Below are positions 1,972-16,070 of a DNA stretch of 64,000 nucleotides, piece after piece. This DNA comes from Candidatus Roseilinea sp. (GTDB taxonomy: Bacteria; Chloroflexota; Anaerolineae; J036; Brachytrichaceae). Made by a program: the position numbers and the translations under genes. The DNA is taken from NCBI GenBank assembly GCA_026003755.1, contig BPHV01000001.1, positions 1,028,393 to 1,092,392 of the forward strand. The letters run 5' to 3'. A model generated the notes under the pieces. It saw nothing but the letters and a program-made list of their open reading frames with translations, was not told the DNA's origin and ran no database searches. Every line of letters starts with the position of its first letter. Within the stretch, counting starts at the first letter, position 1.

Positions 1972-2350
1972 ACGCACCACTGCGCCTACGCCGCGAGCAT
2001 TCGCATCGCAGCGGCGGTCAACAGGGCGACCGATAAAGGCAGCACGTCCTCGTCTATCTGAAATCGGGGGCTATGGTGCGGTTCGATGAAGGTCACGGCG
2101 GCCTCCAACGCCCAACCCTGCGGCGACCTGTGAGACGATTTGTTGAACGCGCGCTTGCAGCAATTGCATGACCGGTTCCTCAAACGCGCGAAGGGGGCCT
2201 TGCAGCTCAACTCCGCCAGGGATCACGCTCGGCGCAGCGCCGCCATGGATGCAGCCCACGGTCACCACGCCTTGCGCCATGGGATCTACCTTGCGCGCCA
2301 CGATGGTCTGAAGCGCGGTGATGATGTGGGCAGCGGCTACAATATCGGAT
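1972..2350 (-). pseudogene. Truncated second copy of the M20 amidohydrolase 3' end
   Basis: This is a close nucleotide copy of 14855-15427, the last third of the intact M20 gene plus 13 bases after its stop codon, with a few percent of mismatches by eye. It lacks the 5' two-thirds of the gene and about 195 bases internally (the segment equivalent to about 14970-15168). Residual peptides include [18 protein letters not shown] and [18 protein letters not shown]. With the intact gene it forms direct repeats around the 12.5 kb accessory island. Confidence 0.85.
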
Positions 2351-2382
2351 TCGTCAGCCTGACATACAGTCAAGAGCAGTGT

Positions 2383-2389
2383 GTTGGGT
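2383..2389 (+). other. Candidate cassette core site GTTGGGT (left boundary)
   Basis: GTTGGGT fits the integron core consensus GTTRRRY and is the exact reverse complement of ACCCAAC at 2997-3003. In a true gene cassette the first bases must match the R'' box of that cassette's own attC, and they do here. It lies 33 bases past the point where M20 homology stops and 20 bases before the acetyltransferase start. Confidence 0.5.
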
Positions 2390-2408
2390 AAAAACAGCAA
2401 ATGAGTGC

Positions 2409-2945
2409 ATGAATAACCAACTCACCATCCAAGTCATGCAGGGCGCATTCTTGTCAGAGTCAGATCGGAAACCCATCATTGCGCTCTGCAACCGCGCTTA
2501 TGAAGAGGACTTGGAGCCGCTGTTCAACACTTCTGTTGGTGCGACCCACGTTCTCGGTTACTGCAATGGTCTTCTTGTAAGCCATGCACTATGGGTGACT
2601 CGCTATTTGCAAGTTGGCAGCGGTCCTCTTTTACGCACGGCATACATCGAAGCAGTTGCCACAGACCCAGCCTGTCGCAATCGCGGTTTTGCAACAGCCA
2701 TTATGAAACGCGTCGCTGATGAGATTCAGGACTATGCGTTGGCAGCGCTTTCTCCATTCAGTGTTGCATTCTATGAGCGACTTGGATGGGAGCTTTGGCA
2801 CGGCCCGTTGTTCATCAGAACCGAGAATGACTTGTTGCCATCTCCAGACGAAGAACAGGTGATGATTCTACGTCTCCCGAAGACACCGCCGCTGGACCTA
2901 AGCGCACCACTTTCTGCAGAGTGGCGTGAAGGTGAATTATGGTGA
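2409..2945 (+). CDS. GNAT acetyltransferase, AAC(2')-like
   Basis: A 178-residue GNAT-fold enzyme expected to transfer acetyl from acetyl-CoA to an amine. The acetyl-CoA loop is visible as AVATDPACRNRGFATAIM (R-x-x-G-x-A type) near residues 81-98. The C-terminal pattern FYERLGWELWHGP, then SPDEEQVMILRLP, ending AEWREGELW, parallels aminoglycoside 2'-N-acetyltransferases, which end in DWRxGDVW. Similarity is by motif only, so the substrate is unproven. The start at 2409 is preferred to an upstream in-frame start because the family N-terminus is short. Base composition is clearly lower in GC than its neighbours. It lies alone between a cassette-like core site and an attC-like structure. Confidence 0.75.
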   Translation: MNNQLTIQVMQGAFLSESDRKPIIALCNRAYEEDLEPLFNTSVGATHVLGYCNGLLVSHALWVTRYLQVGSGPLLRTAYIEAVATDPACRNRGFATAIMKRVADEIQDYALAALSPFSVAFYERLGWELWHGPLFIRTENDLLPSPDEEQVMILRLPKTPPLDLSAPLSAEWREGELW

Positions 2946-2996
2946 CAGCGGGTTGTAAGAGCAACATCATGAAGCCGGATTTTGGTTCGTTGGCCT

Positions 2997-3178
2997 ACCC
3001 AACACGCGCTGCTAAGAAACAGCGGGCTTGCCTGTTGTGGGACAGCCTTTCAAGGCTGTCTAGGACAGGCCAGAAGTCCTGTACTAAGTTTGGCTGTTTC
3101 ATGCGGTTGGAAGGCAGGCCGCGCCTGCCGGAGGGTGTTGCAGCCGACGCCGCTCCGTGCTAGCGCAGGCCGTTAGAC
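2997..3178 (+). other. Candidate attC-like recombination site, 3' end of a gene cassette
   Basis: Ends are ACCCAAC (RYYYAAC, 2997-3003) and GTTAGAC (GTTRRRY, 3172-3178). Just inside, GCGCTGC on the left faces GCTAGCGC on the right, complementary apart from one unpaired base, as in L''/L' boxes. The interior folds heavily: 3016-3023 with 3093-3100, 3030-3035 with 3065-3070, 3041-3049 with 3052-3060, and 3113-3119 with 3123-3129. Weak points are the unusual length (182 bases) and unequal R-L spacers (2 and 5). No integrase gene is in the window. Confidence 0.45.
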
Positions 3179-3219
3179 GCCCCAGCCAACCGCCACAGTC
3201 CAACGATTGGAGGTAGAAA

Positions 3220-4824
3220 TTGTCCAAGCGCAAGAACAACTCAAAGACGACCAACTCCAGCAGCGCCACCCTCGGCTTCGAGGCTCAGCTATGGCAGATG
3301 GCCGACGCCCTGCGCGGCAGCATGGACGCCGCCGAGTACAAACACGTCGTGCTGGGGCTTATCTTCCTCAAGTACATCTCCGACACCTTCGAGGAGCATC
3401 GCAGGCACCTCGAGCAAGAGCCCTACGCGGACCCCGAAGACCCGGACGAGTACCGCGCCGAGAACATCTTCTGGGTGCCCCCCGAGGCGCGCTGGGCACA
3501 CCTCCAGGCTCAGGCCAAGCAACCCACCATCGGCCAATTGGTGGACGATGCCATGCACGCCATTGAGCGGGACAATCCGGCCTTGAAGGGGATGCTCCCT
3601 AAGGACTACGCCCGCCCTGCGCTCGATAAGCAGCGCCTTGGCCAGCTCTTTGACCTCATCAGCAACATCAAGGTGGGCGACGAGGAGGCCCGCGCCAAGG
3701 ACGTACTCGGCCGCGTTTACGAGTACTTCCTCTCGCAGTTTGCCAGCGCCGAAGGCAAAAAAGGCGGCGAGTTCTACACGCCGCGCTGTGTGGTCAAGCT
3801 GCTGGTGGAGATGCTGGAGCCCTACCGCGGCCGCGCCTATGACCCCTGCTGCGGCTCGGCGGGGATGTTCGTGCAATCCGTGGAGTTCATCGAGGCCCAC
3901 GCCTCAGGGAATGGCAACGGCGGCCGCGCTCGCTCCCAGATCAGCATCTACGGCCAGGAACTCAACTACACCACCTGGCGACTGGCCAAGATGAACCTTG
4001 CCATCCGCGGCATTGATGGGCAGATCGAACAGGGTGACACCTTCCTCAACGATCGCTTCCCCGATCTCAAGGCCGACTTCATCCTCGCCAATCCGCCCTT
4101 CAACATGAAGCAGTGGGGCGGCGAGCACCTGCGCGACGACCCGCGCTGGAAGTACGGCGTGCCACCGGTGGGCAACGCCAACTTCGCCTGGGTGCAGCAC
4201 ATCATCCACCACCTGGCGCCCAACGGGGTGGCCGGCTTTGTCCTCGCCAACGGCTCGATGTCCTCGAACCAGTCGGGCGAGGGCGAAATCCGCAAGAATA
4301 TCATCGAAGCGGACCTCGTGGATTGCATGGTGGCGCTGCCGGGCCAGCTTTTCTACTCGACGCAGATCCCGGCGTGCCTGTGGTTCCTCGCGCGCAACAA
4401 ATCCGGTGGGGGCGGGTTCGGACCTCACCCCTACAGGGACCGCCGCGGCCAGGTGCTGTTCATAGACGCCCGCAAGCTGGGCCGCATGGTGGACCGCACC
4501 CACCGCGAGCTGACCGACGAGGACATCAAGAAGATCGCCGACACCTATCACGCATGGCGGGGCGAATCCGACGCGGGCGAATATCAGGACATCCCTGGTT
4601 TCTGCAAGAGCGCCACGCTGGAGGAGATCCGCCAGCACGGTTACGTCCTCACCCCCGGCCGCTACGTCGGCGCCGAGGCGATCGAGGACGACGGCGAGCC
4701 GTTCGACGAGAAGATGAAGCGGCTCGTTGCACAGTGGCGCGAACAAAAGGCCGAAGCGGCGAAGCTGGATGCGGCGATTGCTGCTAACCTCAAGGAATTT
4801 GGTTTTTGGAAGGAGACGCGATGA
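3220..4824 (+). CDS. hsdM: Type I restriction-modification DNA methyltransferase, M subunit
   Basis: HsdM methylates adenine in a bipartite site chosen by HsdS and is also part of the restriction complex. The 534-residue protein has the N-terminal helical domain ([20 protein letters not shown], about residues 25-45), the GEFYTP segment, AdoMet motif [11 protein letters not shown] (about residues 208-217) and catalytic motif IV NPPF (about residues 291-294). The start is TTG with TTGGAGGT six bases upstream; no better ATG exists. It ends in the [18 protein letters not shown] tail that recurs twice downstream. The stop overlaps the next start (ATGA). It appears intact. Confidence 0.95.
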
Positions 4825-6517
4825 CACCTGAGGCCTTGAAGGCACTGATTACTGCAGGCGAAGTACTCTCCGTCGAGTTCAAGGGTGAGAAACGCGCACC
4901 GCTCAACGATCGCGAGCTCGTCGAAGCCGTTGTTTGTCTTGCCAATCGTGCCGGCGACGAGCCAGCGTACTTGCTCGTCGGCGTGGAAGACGACGGCCGC
5001 ATCACCGGCGCCTGGCACCGACATGGCGAGACAACCGACCCGACCTGAGTTGCTGCCCTGATCGCCAACCGCACCCGGCCCTCCATAGCCGTGCAGGTCG
5101 AAACCGTGATCGTCGACGGTAAAGCCGTGCTGGTCATCAAAGTCCCGCCACAACATCAGCCCGTGGCAACCAGCGACGGCGTCTTTCTACGTCGCGCGCT
5201 TGGCGGAGATGGCAAACCCGCCTGCGTGCCGATGGACGGTTACGCCGTACAGTCGTTGCAGGCCGGCCGTGGGCTGCTCGACCCATCGGCGCAGCCCGTC
5301 GCCGACGCACGTTGGGAGCACCTCGACCCGCTCGAGTTCGAGCGTTTCCGGCGCAGCGTGCGCGAGCGGCGCGGGCGCAGCGACGAATCGTTGCTCGATC
5401 TGCCCAATCTCGAGCTGGCCAAGGCGCTCGGTGTCGTGGAAGCCAACGGTGCCGTGCGCGGGGTTCGGTTGGCGGCGCTGTTGCTCTTCGGCAAGGAAGA
5501 CGCCCTGCGTCGCTTCGTGCCCGGCCATGAGGTCGCCTTCCAGGTACTGCGCGGACTCGACGTCGAGGTCAACGACTTCTTCCGCTGGCCGCTCTTGCGG
5601 GTGATGGAAGAAATCGAGGCGCGCATCCGTGCCCGCAACCGCGAACAGGAGCTGATGGTGGGCCTGCTGCGCGTGGGCGTGCCCGACTACCCCGAACGCG
5701 CGCTGCGCGAGGCGCTGGCCAACGCGCTGATCCACCGCGACTACCAGCGGCTGGGCGCCGTGCACTTCCAGTGGCAGCTTGAGCAGATCGAAATCACCAG
5801 TCCCGCGGCTTTCCCGAGGGCGTGCGGCTCGACAATCTGCTCGTCACCGCGCCGCGCCCCAGGAACCCGCTCCTGGCCGATGCCTTCAAGCGCGCCGGCA
5901 TCGTCGAGCGCACTGCGCGCGGCATTGACACCATCTTCTTTGAGCAACTGCGCAACGGCCGTCCGGCCCCCTCTTACGCGCGCAGCAACGAGGCCACGGT
6001 GAGCGTCGTCATCCCCGGCGGCGCGGCCAATCTCGACTTCGTGCGCCTGCTGGTGACCGAAGCGCAACGGGGGCGCGACCTCGCGCTCGATGAGCTGCTC
6101 ATCCTCAACGCCTTGTGGCAGGCACGCAGCCTGACCACGCTGGAGGCCGCCCGCCTCGTGCAAAAGCCCGAAGCCGACACGCGCGCCGCGCTGCACCGGC
6201 TGGTCGAGGCCGGGTTCATCGAGGAGCGCGGGCAGAAGAAAGGCCGCACCTGGCATCTCTCCGCCGCCACCTACCGCCTGCTGGGCGACAAAACGGGTTA
6301 TGTGCGGCAGCGAGGCTTCGAGCCCTTGCAGCAGGAGCAAATGGTGCTGCAGTACGTGGACAAGCACGGGCGCATCACTCGGCGCGAGGCGGCGGAGCTG
6401 TGCCGGATAGGCCCTTACCAAGCTACACGTCTTCTCGATCACTTGGTCAAGGACGGGCGACTGATCCGACATGGTGAGCGCAAGGGCGCGTGGTATGAGC
6501 GAGGGCAAAAAATATGA
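4821..6517 (+). pseudogene. AlbA_2/Schlafen-type ATP-binding regulator (COG2865-like), interrupted
   Basis: The N-terminus (SVEFKGEKRAPLNDRELVE, then LVGVEDDGRITG) is an AlbA_2 nucleotide-binding domain. The middle (ALREALANALIHRDY, ITSP) is the GHKL-like region of COG2865 proteins, and the C-terminal third holds winged-helix segments (ITRREAAELCRIGPYQATRLL). The gene is broken twice: an in-frame TGA at 5046-5048, after which the same frame continues in family sequence, and a one-base loss near 5805 that moves reading into another frame up to 6517. Such genes are frequent inside type I RM loci and may act in regulation or anti-phage defence. Either two mutations or two sequencing errors would explain the breaks. 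Confidence 0.75.
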
Positions 6518-10857: not shown

Positions 10858-10944
10858 CTGCGCGATGCGCTGCTGCCTAAGCTCATCTCCGGCGAGCTGC
10901 GGGTCAGGGATGCGGAACGGTTTTTGAAGGAGCGGGGGCTATGA
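10858..10944 (+). pseudogene. hsdS tail echo
   Basis: This 28-codon open segment encodes LRDALLPKLISGELRVRDAE and then RFLKERGL, repeating the last residues of HsdS (LRDALLPKLISGELRVKDAE, FLRECGL). The first 50 or so bases are nearly identical to 9848-9897. No start codon in this frame is obvious. The stop overlaps the next ATG (ATGA). It is a relic of another hsdS, left after the DUF3800 gene. Confidence 0.8.
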
Positions 10945-11501
10945 TTGATCACCATGGCACGGGTGGGTTTCAAACCCGCCCCAACCGCCGCAGCATCCGC
11001 CTGAAGGGATACGATTATTCTCAGGCCGGGGCGTATTTCATCACGATTTGCACAAAGGATCGGGCGTGCCTTTTCGGGGAGGTGGTGAATGGCGAAATGC
11101 GGTTGAACGCATTAGGCCAGATTGTGCACGGCGTTTGGAATAATTTGCCAAACCATTATGCAGGTGTAGAAATGGACGCGTTCGTTGTGATGCCGAACCA
11201 TGTGCATGGGATCGTTGTCATCGTAGGGGCGGGTTTCAAACCCGCCCCCACGACCACCACCGCCCCTACGACGACCCGCCACGGCCTGCCCGAAATCGTC
11301 CGGCAATTCAAAACATTTTCTGCGCGTCGAATAAACGAAATGCGCGGCACACCTGGCGTTTCGGTTTGGCAACGCAATTACTACGAACATATCATCCGCA
11401 ACGAGGAATCATTGCACCGCATCCGCGAATACATCGCAAACAACCCGCTCAAATGGGAATTGGACCGGGAAAATCTGGGCATTGCAGGAGGCGGGTTCTG
11501 A
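10941..11501 (+). CDS. REP-associated tyrosine transposase (RAYT, Y1 family)
   Basis: The 186-residue protein has the Y1 (HUH) hallmarks: YDYSQAGAYFITICT at the N-terminus, the metal-binding MPNHVHGIVV (HxH) near residues 82-91, and the presumed nucleophile tyrosine in VWQRNYYEHIIRNEESL near residues 142-158. RAYTs are single-copy domesticated relatives of IS200/IS605 transposases that act on REP palindromes. Two REP palindromes lie within its own coding sequence (encoding GGFQTRP and GAGFKPAP) and one lies in hsdS. It starts in an ATGA overlap with the hsdS tail echo. Confidence 0.88.
   Translation: MIDHHGTGGFQTRPNRRSIRLKGYDYSQAGAYFITICTKDRACLFGEVVNGEMRLNALGQIVHGVWNNLPNHYAGVEMDAFVVMPNHVHGIVVIVGAGFKPAPTTTTAPTTTRHGLPEIVRQFKTFSARRINEMRGTPGVSVWQRNYYEHIIRNEESLHRIREYIANNPLKWELDRENLGIAGGGF
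10961..10981. repeat. REP-like palindrome in the RAYT 5' end
   Basis: GGGTGGG and CCCGCCC surround TTTCAAA. It belongs to the same family as 9210-9238 and 11223-11251, with one mismatch in the stem. It encodes residues before the conserved RAYT start. Confidence 0.75.
11223..11251. repeat. REP-like palindrome inside the RAYT gene
   Basis: GTAGGGGCGGG and CCCGCCCCCAC surround TTTCAAA. It is read in frame as VGAGFKPAPT, just after the HxH motif region, in a place where the protein family tolerates inserts. Confidence 0.8.
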
Positions 11502-11525: not shown

Positions 11526-14500
11526 ATGGCGCGTCTGACCGAATCCGACATTGAATCCGCCGCCCTTGACTGGCTACGAGCCACCGGCTGGCAGGTGGCC
11601 TACGGGCCTGATCTTGCGCCGGATGGCCCCGCGCCCGAACGCACCGATTACGGACAGGTCGTTCTGGAGCAACGCCTGCGCGATGCGCTCGCCCGCCTCA
11701 ACCCCCAACTCCCCGCCGAGGCGCTGGAGGACGCCTTCCGCAAACTGACCCGTCCCGCGGACGCCGACCTGATGCAGCGCAACCGCACGCTGCACCGGCG
11801 GATGGTAGACGGCGTGACGGTGGAGTATCGCCGGGTAGACGGCTCGATCGCGGGAGCGCAGGCGCGAGTCCTTGACTTCGACGCCACCGAGAACAACGAC
11901 TGGCTCGCGGTGAACCAGTTCACCGTCAGCGAGAACCGCCACACCCGGCGGGCCGACATCGTGCTATTCGTGAATGGCCTGCCGCTCGCCATCATCGAGC
12001 TGAAGAACCCCACCGATGAGCATGCCACCATCTGGGCAGCCTGGCAGCAGCTCCAGACCTACAAACACGAGATCCCTTCGCTCTTTGCTTACAACGAGGC
12101 GCTCGTCATCTCCGACGGCATCGAGGCGCGGGTCGGGGTGGTGGGCGCCGGGCGCGAGTGGTTTAAGCCCTGGCGCACCATCGCAGGCGAGGCCCTGGCA
12201 CCCGATACGATGCCGCAGTTGCAGGTGATGATCGAGGGGCTGTTCGAGAAGCAGCGGTTCCTTGATTTGGTGCGTGATTTCATCGTCTTCGAAGATGACG
12301 GCAGCGGACGCCTGATTAAAAAGATGGCCGGCTACCACCAGTTCCACGCCGTGCGGGTGGCCGTGGCCGAGACCCTGCGCGCCGCGCAATTGACGCATAC
12401 TGATCGGGTGGCGGACGCGCTCGGGCGCTACGAAGCAGGCCGTAAGTCCGGCGGTCAACCGGGCGATCGCCGCATTGGGGTGGTCTGGCACACCCAGGGT
12501 TCGGGCAAGAGCCTGACCATGGCCTTCTACGCCGGCCGCATCATCCGCGAGCCGGCCATGGAGAACCCTACCCTGGTGGTGCTCACCGATCGCAACGACC
12601 TCGACGACCAGCTCTTCGGGACGTTCTCCCGCTGCCAGGAGCTGCTGCGCCAGCCGCCGGTGCAGGCCGAGAGCCGCGCCCACCTGCGCGAGCTGTTGTC
12701 GGTGACCGCGGGCGGGGTGGTGTTTACCACCATCCAGAAGTTCCTGCCCGAAGAGAAGGGCGACCGGCACCCGACGCTTTCTGAGCGGCGCAACATCGTG
12801 GTCATCGCCGACGAAGCCCACCGCAGCCAGTACGACTTCATTGACGGCTTCGCCCGCCACCTGCGCGACGCCCTGCCGGGCGCCTCCTTCATCGGCTTCA
12901 CCGGCACGCCGATCGAACAGGCCGACGCCAACACCCGCGCGGTCTTCGGCGACTACATCAGCATCTACGACATCCAGCGCGCGGTGGAGGACGGCGCCAC
13001 CGTGCCCATCTACTACGAGAGCCGGCTGGCCAAGCTGGCGCTCGCGCCGAGCGAACCACCGGATCGACGAGGACTTCGAGGAGGTCACCGAGGGCGAGGA
13101 GCTCGAGCGCAAGGAAAAGCTCAAGACGAAGTGGGCGCAGCTCGAAGCGGTGGTTGGTGCAGAGAGGCGCCTCAAGCTCGTCGCCCAGGACATCGTCGAG
13201 CACTTCGAGCAGCGGCTCGAGGCGATGGACGGCAAGGCGATGATGGTGTGCATGAGCCGGCGCATCTGCGTGGAGCTCTACCGCGAGATCGTCCGCCTGC
13301 GCCCGCAGTGGGCCAGCGACGACGACGCAAAGGGGCAGATCAAGATTGTGATGACCGGCTCGGCCTCCGACCCCCCCGACTGGCAGCCGCACATCCGCAA
13401 CAAACCGCGCCGCGAGGCGCTGGCGAAGCGCTTCCGCGACCCAAACGATCCGCTCAAACTGGTCATCGTGCGCGATATGTGGCTCACCGGCTTCGACGCC
13501 CCAGCCTGCACACCCTCTACCTCGACAAGCCCATGCGCGGCCACGGCCTGATGCAGGCCATCGCCCGGGTAAACCGGGTGTTCCGCGACAAGCCGGGCGG
13601 CCTGGTGGTGGATTACCTGGGTCTGGCGCACGAGCTTAAACAGGCGCTGGCGACCTACACCGAAAGCGGCGGCACGGGGCAGACCGCGATCGTTCAGGAT
13701 GAAGCGGTGGCGCTGATGCGAGAGAAGTACGAGATCTGCCGCGGCCTCTTCCACGAGTTCGACTGGTCGAAGTGGGTGACGCGGCACGCCTCAGGAGCGG
13801 CTGGCGCTTCTCCCTGCTGCGCAGGAGCACATCCTACGCTAGCAGAAGGGCAAGGAGCGGTTTCTGCAGGCGGCGCGCGAGCTGTCGCAAGCCTTCGCGC
13901 TGGCGGTGCCGCACGAGGAGGCCCTGGCGCATCAGGGACGATGTGGCTTTCTTTCCAGGCGGTGCGGGCAGCGCTCGCCAAACGCACGGCAGAGGGGCGC
14001 ACGGCCATGAGCCCCTCGAGCACGCCATCCGCCAGATCGTCGCCCGCGCCATCGCCCCCGAGGGCGTGGTGGACCTCTTCGCCGCGGCCGGCCTCAAGAA
14101 GCCCGACCTCTCGATCCTCTCCGAGGAGTTCCTGGCCGAGGTGCGGGGGATGCCGCAGAAGAACCTGGCCGTGGAGCTCCTGCGCAAGCTGCTCAAGGGC
14201 GAGATCAAGCCCACTGGCGCAGGAACATCGTCCAGGGTCGGTCTTTTGCCGCCCTGCTTAGAGCAGGCCATCCGCCGCTACCAGAACCGCGCCGTCGAGG
14301 CCGCCCAGGTGATCGAGGAACTGATCGCCCTCGCCGGGGAAATGCGAGAGGCGGCAGCCGCGGGGTGAGAAGCTGCGCCTGATCAGAAGAGGAGCTGGCG
14401 TTCTACGATGCGCTGGAGACCAACGACAGCGCGGTCAAAGTGCTGGGCGACGAGACGCTCCGGACCATTGCCCGCGAACTGGTCGCAACGGTGCGCAACA

Positions 14501-14669: not shown

Positions 14670-14854
14670 ACGGGGAGTCGAACAACAGCATGCAGCAGAC
14701 GGCCCGCTGTGCGGCCCACCTCAAGATCACGCAGCGCGTGGTCCTGGCCAACTTTCAGTTCGCGAAGATGGCCATGGTCGAGGATCTGAAGAGGAACGGG
14801 GACACCATAGCTTCGAGCGTCATCGTTGCGGACGGTGCTGCGCGCCGCCAGTAA
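14666..14854 (+). CDS. Small hypothetical protein coupled to hsdR
   Basis: The 62-residue ORF starts in an ATGA overlap with the hsdR stop. It contains [20 protein letters not shown] and [20 protein letters not shown], with no recognisable domain, signal peptide or membrane segment. It ends immediately before the right copy of the M20 3' repeat. It could be the last cargo gene of the island or a chance frame. Confidence 0.35.
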
Positions 14855-15427
14855 CGCACCACTGCGCCTACGCCGCGAGCATTCGCATCGCAGCGGCGGT
14901 CAACAGGGCAACCGATAAAGGCAGCACGTCCTCGTCTATCTGAAATCGGGGGCTGTGGTGCGGTTCGATCATCCCCTTGGCCCGGTTGCCTGCCCCGACG
15001 AACACGTACGCGCCGGGGACCGCTTGAAGGAAGAAAGCACAATCCTCAGTGGCCATGATGCGATAGTCGTTGCGCACTCGCTCTGGCCCCAGCAACGCCG
15101 CCGCCGTCTCGCGCGCAAGCGCCGCCATGGCTGGGTCGTTCACCGTGGCCGGCGTGCTCGGCTCCGCGAAGGTCACGGCGGCCTCCACGCCCAACCCTGC
15201 GGCGACCTGTGAGGCGATTTGTTGAACGCGCGCTTGCAGCAATTGCATGACCGATTCCTCAAACGCGCGAAGGGTGCCTTGCAGCTCAACCCCGTCAGGA
15301 ATCACGTTCGGCGCGGCGCCGCCATGGATGCAGCCCACGGTCACCACACCTTGCGCCATGGGATCAACATTGCGCGCCACGATGGTCTGAAGCGCGGTGA
15401 TGATGTGGGCAGCGGCGACAATCGGAT
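14855..15427. repeat. Right direct repeat (M20 3' end) flanking the island
   Basis: The segment starts ACGCACCACTGCGCCTACGC, 13 bases beyond the M20 stop codon, and is repeated at 1972-2350. The left copy lacks about 195 internal bases. The two copies are in the same orientation and enclose 2351-14854. Confidence 0.85.
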
Positions 15428-16070
15428 CGGCGCCTAGGTGCGGTGCTGCGCCGTGCGCGCCGCGCCCGCGCACGGCGATGCGATAGGCTGTGCTGGCTGC
15501 CAAGGTCGGGCCATCGGCCACGCTGACCGTGCCTACCTCTTCGGTCGCCCAGACGTGCATCGCCAGCACCCGGTCCGGCGCCGGATCGGCCAGCACCCCG
15601 TCGCGGATCATGGCCAACGCACCGCCGACGACCTCCTCCGCCGGCTGAAAGACGAATTTCACCATCCCGCCCCACTCATCGCGACGACGCGCCAACAGCT
15701 CGGCCACCCCCAGCCCAATCGCCGTGTGCGCATCATGGCCGCAGGCATGCATCTTGTCCGGATATTGCGACTTAAACGGGACGTCCACCGCCTCTTGGAT
15801 GGGCAACGCGTCCATGTCGAAACGCAACATTAAGGTGAGCGGACGATCGGTTGCCCCCGTGCCTGTCAGCAGACCAACCACGCCGGTCCGGCCGATGCCG
15901 GTTTGCACCGCATAGCCCAGGGCGCGCAACCGCTCGGCAACAATGCCGGCAGTGCGCACCTCTTGAAAGGCCAGTTCGGGATGCTGATGGAGATCGCGCC
16001 GCACAGCGATCAGGGAATCGCGCATCGCTTCGGCTTCGGTGCGAATCTGAGACAAAGACAGGGACATCAT
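14868..16070 (-). CDS. M20-family N-acyl-amino-acid amidohydrolase / carboxypeptidase
   Basis: The 400-residue zinc amidohydrolase belongs to the hippurate hydrolase / N-acyl-L-amino acid hydrolase group (M20D). It hydrolyses N-acylated amino acids or aminoacyl conjugates. Visible motifs are [15 protein letters not shown] near residue 24, the metal-binding [14 protein letters not shown] near 98-111, [11 protein letters not shown] with the catalytic Glu pair, and [20 protein letters not shown] near the C-terminus. The start MMSLSLSQ at 16070 is chosen; upstream sequence in frame is unlike the family. It is probably co-transcribed with the GH13 gene 40 bases upstream. Its 3' end is duplicated at 1972-2350. 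Confidence 0.92.

Follow-up and report, generated by a model that had tools for sequence, protein, structure and literature searches.

Integron gene cassettes that stand alone or lie dispersed, away from an integrase, are a known phenomenon. Two or more clustered attC sites without intI are referred to as a CALIN, and single-attC elements are recognised as possibly real by the same work from which this two-site threshold comes (PMC9024848), which also proposes that CALINs are degraded integrons. For attC clusters that lack an integrase, one of the proposed origins is off-target insertion by an IntI encoded at another place in the genome (PMC8618304). Integrons have already been found in Chloroflexota (PMC2426708, PMC8618304, PMC9668308), and sul4, a cassette-linked resistance gene, was traced to Chloroflexi (PMC5732528). 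DNA can also be inserted into attC sites themselves, as by the IS1111-attC elements ISKpn4 and ISPst6 (PMC11187229).

Here, a 64-kb stretch of a Chloroflexota chromosome (Candidatus Roseilinea sp.; hereafter the window) was analysed, which very probably carries a single cassette with an AAC(2')-like GNAT gene, located outside any integron and beside a type I RM operon. The host chromosome also bears an integron of its own, at a distance of about 168 kb, and several other attC sites dispersed along it. This cassette is a fresh example of the class described above. It resembles the single-attC elements and CALINs reported by IntegronFinder (PMC9024848) in combining a cassette and an attC away from any intI, and it differs from a CALIN in that only one cassette is present and its attC is interrupted by a repeat. 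The features of the locus are as follows.

2344–3207, no strand: whole segment absent from the orthologous locus of genome G002, that is, the cassette with about 40 bp to its left and 35 bp to its right
2383–2389, plus strand: left core site GTTGGGT, read directly in the sequence, of which G belongs to the flank and TTGGGT to the cassette
2384–3172, plus strand: integron gene cassette as integrated, from the first base after the G of the left core to the G of R'
2409–2945, plus strand: AAC(2')-like GNAT acetyltransferase of 178 aa, from Pfam, NCBIfam and PDB matches
2997–3003, plus strand: attC R'' box ACCCAAC, aligned to the R'' box GCCCAAC of the Bellilinea cassette and of a resident attC
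3004–3012, plus strand: remnant of the 5' L'' side of attC, ACGCGCTGC, whose counterpart in a resident attC is ACGCGCTTGC
3008–3143, plus strand: dispersed palindromic (REP/BIME-like) repeat of about 136 bp interrupting attC, its ends uncertain by about 5 bp on each side
3144–3178, plus strand: 3' part of attC, GCCGACGCCGCTCCG ... TAGCGCAGGCC GTTAGAC, from nhmmer, the exact AGCGCAGGCCGTTAG and the alignment with resident attC sites

A preliminary description of this DNA had proposed a lone integron-type cassette at 2384–3172 with an AAC(2')-like gene, and this proposal is upheld by a sister cassette in another genus, resident attC sites of the same type and an unoccupied orthologous locus. The three boxes that it named, GTTGGGT (2383–2389), ACCCAAC (2997–3003) and GTTAGAC (3172–3178), are all at those positions. 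The consensus sequences used were GTTRRRY for the left core and RYYYAAC for R''. Both boxes lie inside a perfect 10-bp inverted pair (2381–2390 and 2996–3005) with arms 605 bp apart, which bears out the earlier remark that the left core is the exact reverse complement of the R''-like box. On one strand, a left core is thus followed by the gene and then by its complementary R'', the arrangement of a cassette. The boundaries are based on this exact complementarity, on the alignment with the Bellilinea cassette and on the G002 locus without a cassette. The GC content of the gene is 0.52, below the 0.63–0.66 of its neighbours, as had also been remarked.

The same gene is carried by a cassette array of Bellilinea caldifistulae GOMI-1 (NZ_LGHJ01000003.1), with identities of 89% at the amino acid level and 87% at the DNA level (86.8% over 2387–2981 of the window). 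In that array, the unit lies between two matches to the attC covariance model described below (43 and 34 bits), one just upstream of the gene (L135:5886–5949) and one just downstream (L135:6596–6672); two further matches bring the number of attC sites to four. The alignment begins at window position 2387, within the left core, continues through R'' (GGCCTACCCAACACG / GGCCTGCCCAACCCG), which has the same position in both cassettes, and stops short of the left flank of the window cassette. The Bellilinea cassette differs in lying in an array with intact attC sites, in having about 30 extra bp ahead of the homology start and in the 3' sequence of its attC. The GNAT homologues of genomes G005 (75%) and G046 (64%) have flanks without significant attC model matches, and the gene family therefore comprises both ordinary genes and cassettes. 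In a plasmid search for the gene, the matches listed included only relatives of 27–35% identity (Acinetobacter, Deinococcus, Proteus and Providencia). A contig of a Candidatus Poribacteria MAG (L137) encodes a GNAT that is 66% identical, followed directly by CCCTAACAAGCGATTGTACGTGACGG, which resembles the 5' half of an attC; on the opposite strand, at a distance of about 2 kb, the attC model gives a weak match (17 bits).

The preliminary description had assumed that the genome has no integrase, which is wrong, and the genome-wide search that it had proposed recovered an intI and 12 intact attC sites. The integrase (TIGR02249, C1:861341–862297) scores 469 bits against a cut-off of 265, which was passed by none of the 14 control genomes. 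A cassette array with three textbook attC sites lies upstream of, and divergent from, intI. An attC covariance model, R1, was trained on 19 attC sites taken from this array and from related arrays next to intI, with the window site left out. The model is well supported: 91% of the cells are paired, the covariation score is 0.306 compared with 0.116 in shuffles, and 45 stem cells are changed on both sides in a compensatory manner compared with 17 in shuffles. The 12 intact attC sites were found with R1 at E<1e-4; three of them lie beside intI and also belong to the training set of the model, the rest are dispersed, and most of the 12 lie far from intI. R1 matches are present in 28 of the 41 genomes searched, which shows that cassettes of integrons are passed around among Chloroflexota chromosomes and become scattered over them. 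The covariance model found no second clear attC in the 64-kb window, and intI and attI are not adjacent to the window cassette, intI being about 168 kb away. The window element is a single-attC element rather than a CALIN or a complete integron. Apart from this, the window genome and genome G007 share an intI segment of 1.1 kb at 99.8% identity (L019:16174–17301 and L095:7546–8674, respectively; the G007 copy is cut short), which suggests a recent transfer.

The attC of the window cassette is in two pieces. In a resident attC, the order is GCCCAAC ACGCGCTTGC ACCTGACGCCGCTCCGCTGCGCTTCGGCGGCGCAGGTGAAGCGCAGTCC GTTGGGC, and in the window it is ACCCAAC ACGCGCTGC (repeat) AGCCGACGCCGCTCCGTGC TAGCGCAGGCC GTTAGAC, and both ends of the window site match, box for box, those of one of the three intI-adjacent attC sites. 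The 3' part (3144–3178) lacks the inner half of L', about 17–20 nt, and ranks second in the 64 kb in an nhmmer search with an attC profile. In the sequence examined (1.8 Mb with both strands counted), [N]CCAACACGCGCT with AGCGCAG[N]CCGTT[R] no more than 400 bp after it is present only at the window locus and at one genuine intI-adjacent attC. For either half by itself, about 0.2 occurrences per 64 kb would be expected even when 1–2 mismatches are allowed, and both window halves are exact. As both halves match the resident attC sites, with a repeat between them and a shortened L', the site is read as an attC interrupted by the repeat. The 182-base attC with uneven R-L spacers of the preliminary description is rather a short attC that lacks part of L' and is split by a dispersed repeat. 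Similarly, the extensive internal pairing that it reported is present but belongs to the unrelated repeat at 3008–3143 and not to attC. The repeat itself was considered as a VCR-like attC and rejected, because the ends of its copies fall at about 3008 and 3143 and non-attC flanks surround most of them. An Rfam search of the region gave only chance-level matches.

The two checks that had been suggested for the site, a significant attC model match ending at 3172 and a bottom-strand fold, gave results against an intact attC. The unmodified site reaches only 6.6 bits with R1, in a match that does not end at R', and the top model matches in the window resemble GC-rich chance hairpins. The bottom-strand fold of the whole 196-nt stretch is strong (z −2.9), but this strength is that of the repeat, and R'' is not paired with R', nor L'' with L', unlike in the predicted fold of a resident attC; the native site thus lacks the fold of an attC. 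For the Bellilinea attC strand, the predicted fold is no better than those of shuffles, so folding alone is a poor test. Taken together, the absence of a model match and of an attC fold suggests that the cassette is probably immobile at present.

The interrupting repeat is built of several REP-like palindromes (GGACAGCC..GGCTGTC, GGACAGGCC..GTCCTGT and GGCAGGCCGCGCCTGCC) and is present in only 4 of the 28 genomes searched. Besides the window copy, copies were located on L002, L003, L004, L039, L057, L062, L063, L064 and L144; those in genomes G000, G002 and G015 are 77–94% identical, and G007 has a fragment. Three copies lie at attC or attC-half sequences. In addition to the window copy, the repeat of G007 adjoins an attC 3' part; this junction follows a CPBP-like cassette gene (identified by eye) and lies in an integron whose intI is damaged. 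The repeat of G015 (L039) lies beside the 5' part of an attC. These three cases, although attC sites account for only a few hundredths of a percent of genome sequence, are the basis for the tentative and rather unlikely idea that the repeat prefers and breaks attC sites, so that cassettes once mobile would become fixed genes throughout this Chloroflexota genus. Compared with the IS1111-attC elements ISKpn4 and ISPst6, the window insert likewise lies inside an attC; it differs in being a non-coding palindromic repeat of about 136 bp that also occurs at many non-attC sites. By eye, an IS110-type element lies inside the repeat of G007. Also by eye, the gene at 10941–11501, inside the RM island, encodes a REP-associated tyrosine transposase (RAYT / IS200-like), from which REP-like repeats may stem.

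A relative without 2384–3172, for which a search had been proposed, is G002 (C52) of the same genus, although it lacks about 75 bp more than the cassette. In G002, an M20 piece is joined almost directly to hsdM (L056: ...GGCTATAATCACTGGTGGAGG...), and the upstream region 1475–1951 is also collinear with the window; about 2344–3207 is therefore extra in the window genome or was lost in G002. As the absent segment exceeds the cassette by about 75 bp, a clean single insertion is only putative. The 40-bp and 35-bp flank remnants gave nothing significant elsewhere, nor did a search of relatives with the joined flanks for the exact unoccupied core site.

The events at the locus may be pictured as follows. 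An integron integrase, either the resident one or a predecessor, would have placed a circular cassette into a secondary site of the GTT type. The palindromic repeat would later have landed inside attC, between the R''/L'' side and the rest, and the repeat, together with the small deletion in L', would have inactivated attC and fixed the cassette in place.

Another origin, possible but somewhat unlikely, is that the cassette is the last remnant of a larger array, a degraded CALIN or integron. Loss of intI and of the adjoining cassettes would have spared, besides this cassette, only short stretches of flank next to the RM operon. Such decay has been proposed for CALINs (PMC9024848), and it would account for the unexplained flanks of roughly 40 bp (left) and 35 bp (right) and for a weak attC-like stretch at 14680–14715, the best nhmmer match in the window (E=0.0036), which adjoins the intact M20 copy at the far end of the RM island. 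However, the covariance model reveals no other clear attC in the 64 kb, and the orthologous locus of G002 has no cassette sequence.

Insertion of a single cassette at a secondary site also has to be weighed against two readings that deny either the cassette or its inactivation. The locus could be an ordinary chromosomal GNAT gene beside a palindromic repeat, with box-like heptamers by coincidence, as the G005 and G046 homologues without attC matches, the pairing due to an unrelated repeat and the absence of a model match to the interrupted site would allow; yet the Bellilinea sister cassette is bounded by attC sites, and the extended box-for-box identity with a resident attC is unique in the 1.8 Mb examined, so that this chance explanation is highly improbable. 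It is only slightly more probable, and still quite improbable, that the long site still works as an attC, the repeat forming a terminal structure of unusual size that folds on itself, and that the cassette is still mobile. In favour of this, neither R'' nor R' is damaged and the insert is a palindromic repeat, but the predicted bottom-strand fold pairs neither R'' with R' nor L'' with L', unlike that of a resident attC, and the inner part of L' is missing.

Judged from its homologues, the product of the cassette gene is probably an acetyltransferase in the AAC(2') branch of the GNATs. The protein matches Acetyltransf_9 in Pfam (60 bits), and its best NCBIfam match is AAC(2')-Ic with 53 bits (E=2.5e-14), far below the curated cut-off of 375. 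The best PDB match is 1m44, the AAC(2')-Ic of M. tuberculosis (E=1.1e-15 over residues 6–178), and the best seven PDB matches are all AAC(2') enzymes, in keeping with full-length homology. In 12 homologues, the C-terminal Trp and the YIEAVA-motif Glu are fully or almost fully conserved; their counterparts in the 1m44 alignment are Trp181 and Glu82. The enzyme thus shares full-length similarity and the C-terminal tryptophan with AAC(2')-I (1m44, 7crm and 6vr2), and it differs in its low identity (53 versus 375 bits) and in being cassette-borne. With an E value of about 1e-15 to 1m44, the earlier label "AAC(2')-like" is fair by sequence alone, and a role in aminoglycoside acetylation or resistance is only putative. 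In a literature search for aminoglycoside 2'-acetyltransferases together with cassette, integron and attC, the single paper retrieved mentioned the enzyme just in the title of a reference, a weak negative. At least two genera carry an AAC(2')-like acetyltransferase as a cassette, and environmental cassettes with such resistance-like genes are a possible reservoir. Cassettes whose attC is broken by a repeat, as in the window, would probably be missed by standard attC searches.

The neighbourhood of the cassette agrees with the preliminary placement beside an RM operon, hsdM of the type I RM operon lying directly to the right. To the left, 1972–2343 holds an incomplete M20 amidohydrolase gene with an internal deletion; the intact copy of this gene lies at 14868–16062. 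These two copies flank the RM island, and their pieces are 94.9–98% identical in the comparison with 14854–15422, with an internal deletion of 198 bp in the left copy. An AlbA_2/Schlafen-type gene (4806–6002) is apparently split by an in-frame TGA at about 5046. The hsdR frame (11526–14261) looks frameshifted, its 911-aa ORF being of low complexity past about 13000, and HsdR-like sequence lies in another frame at 12841–13551.
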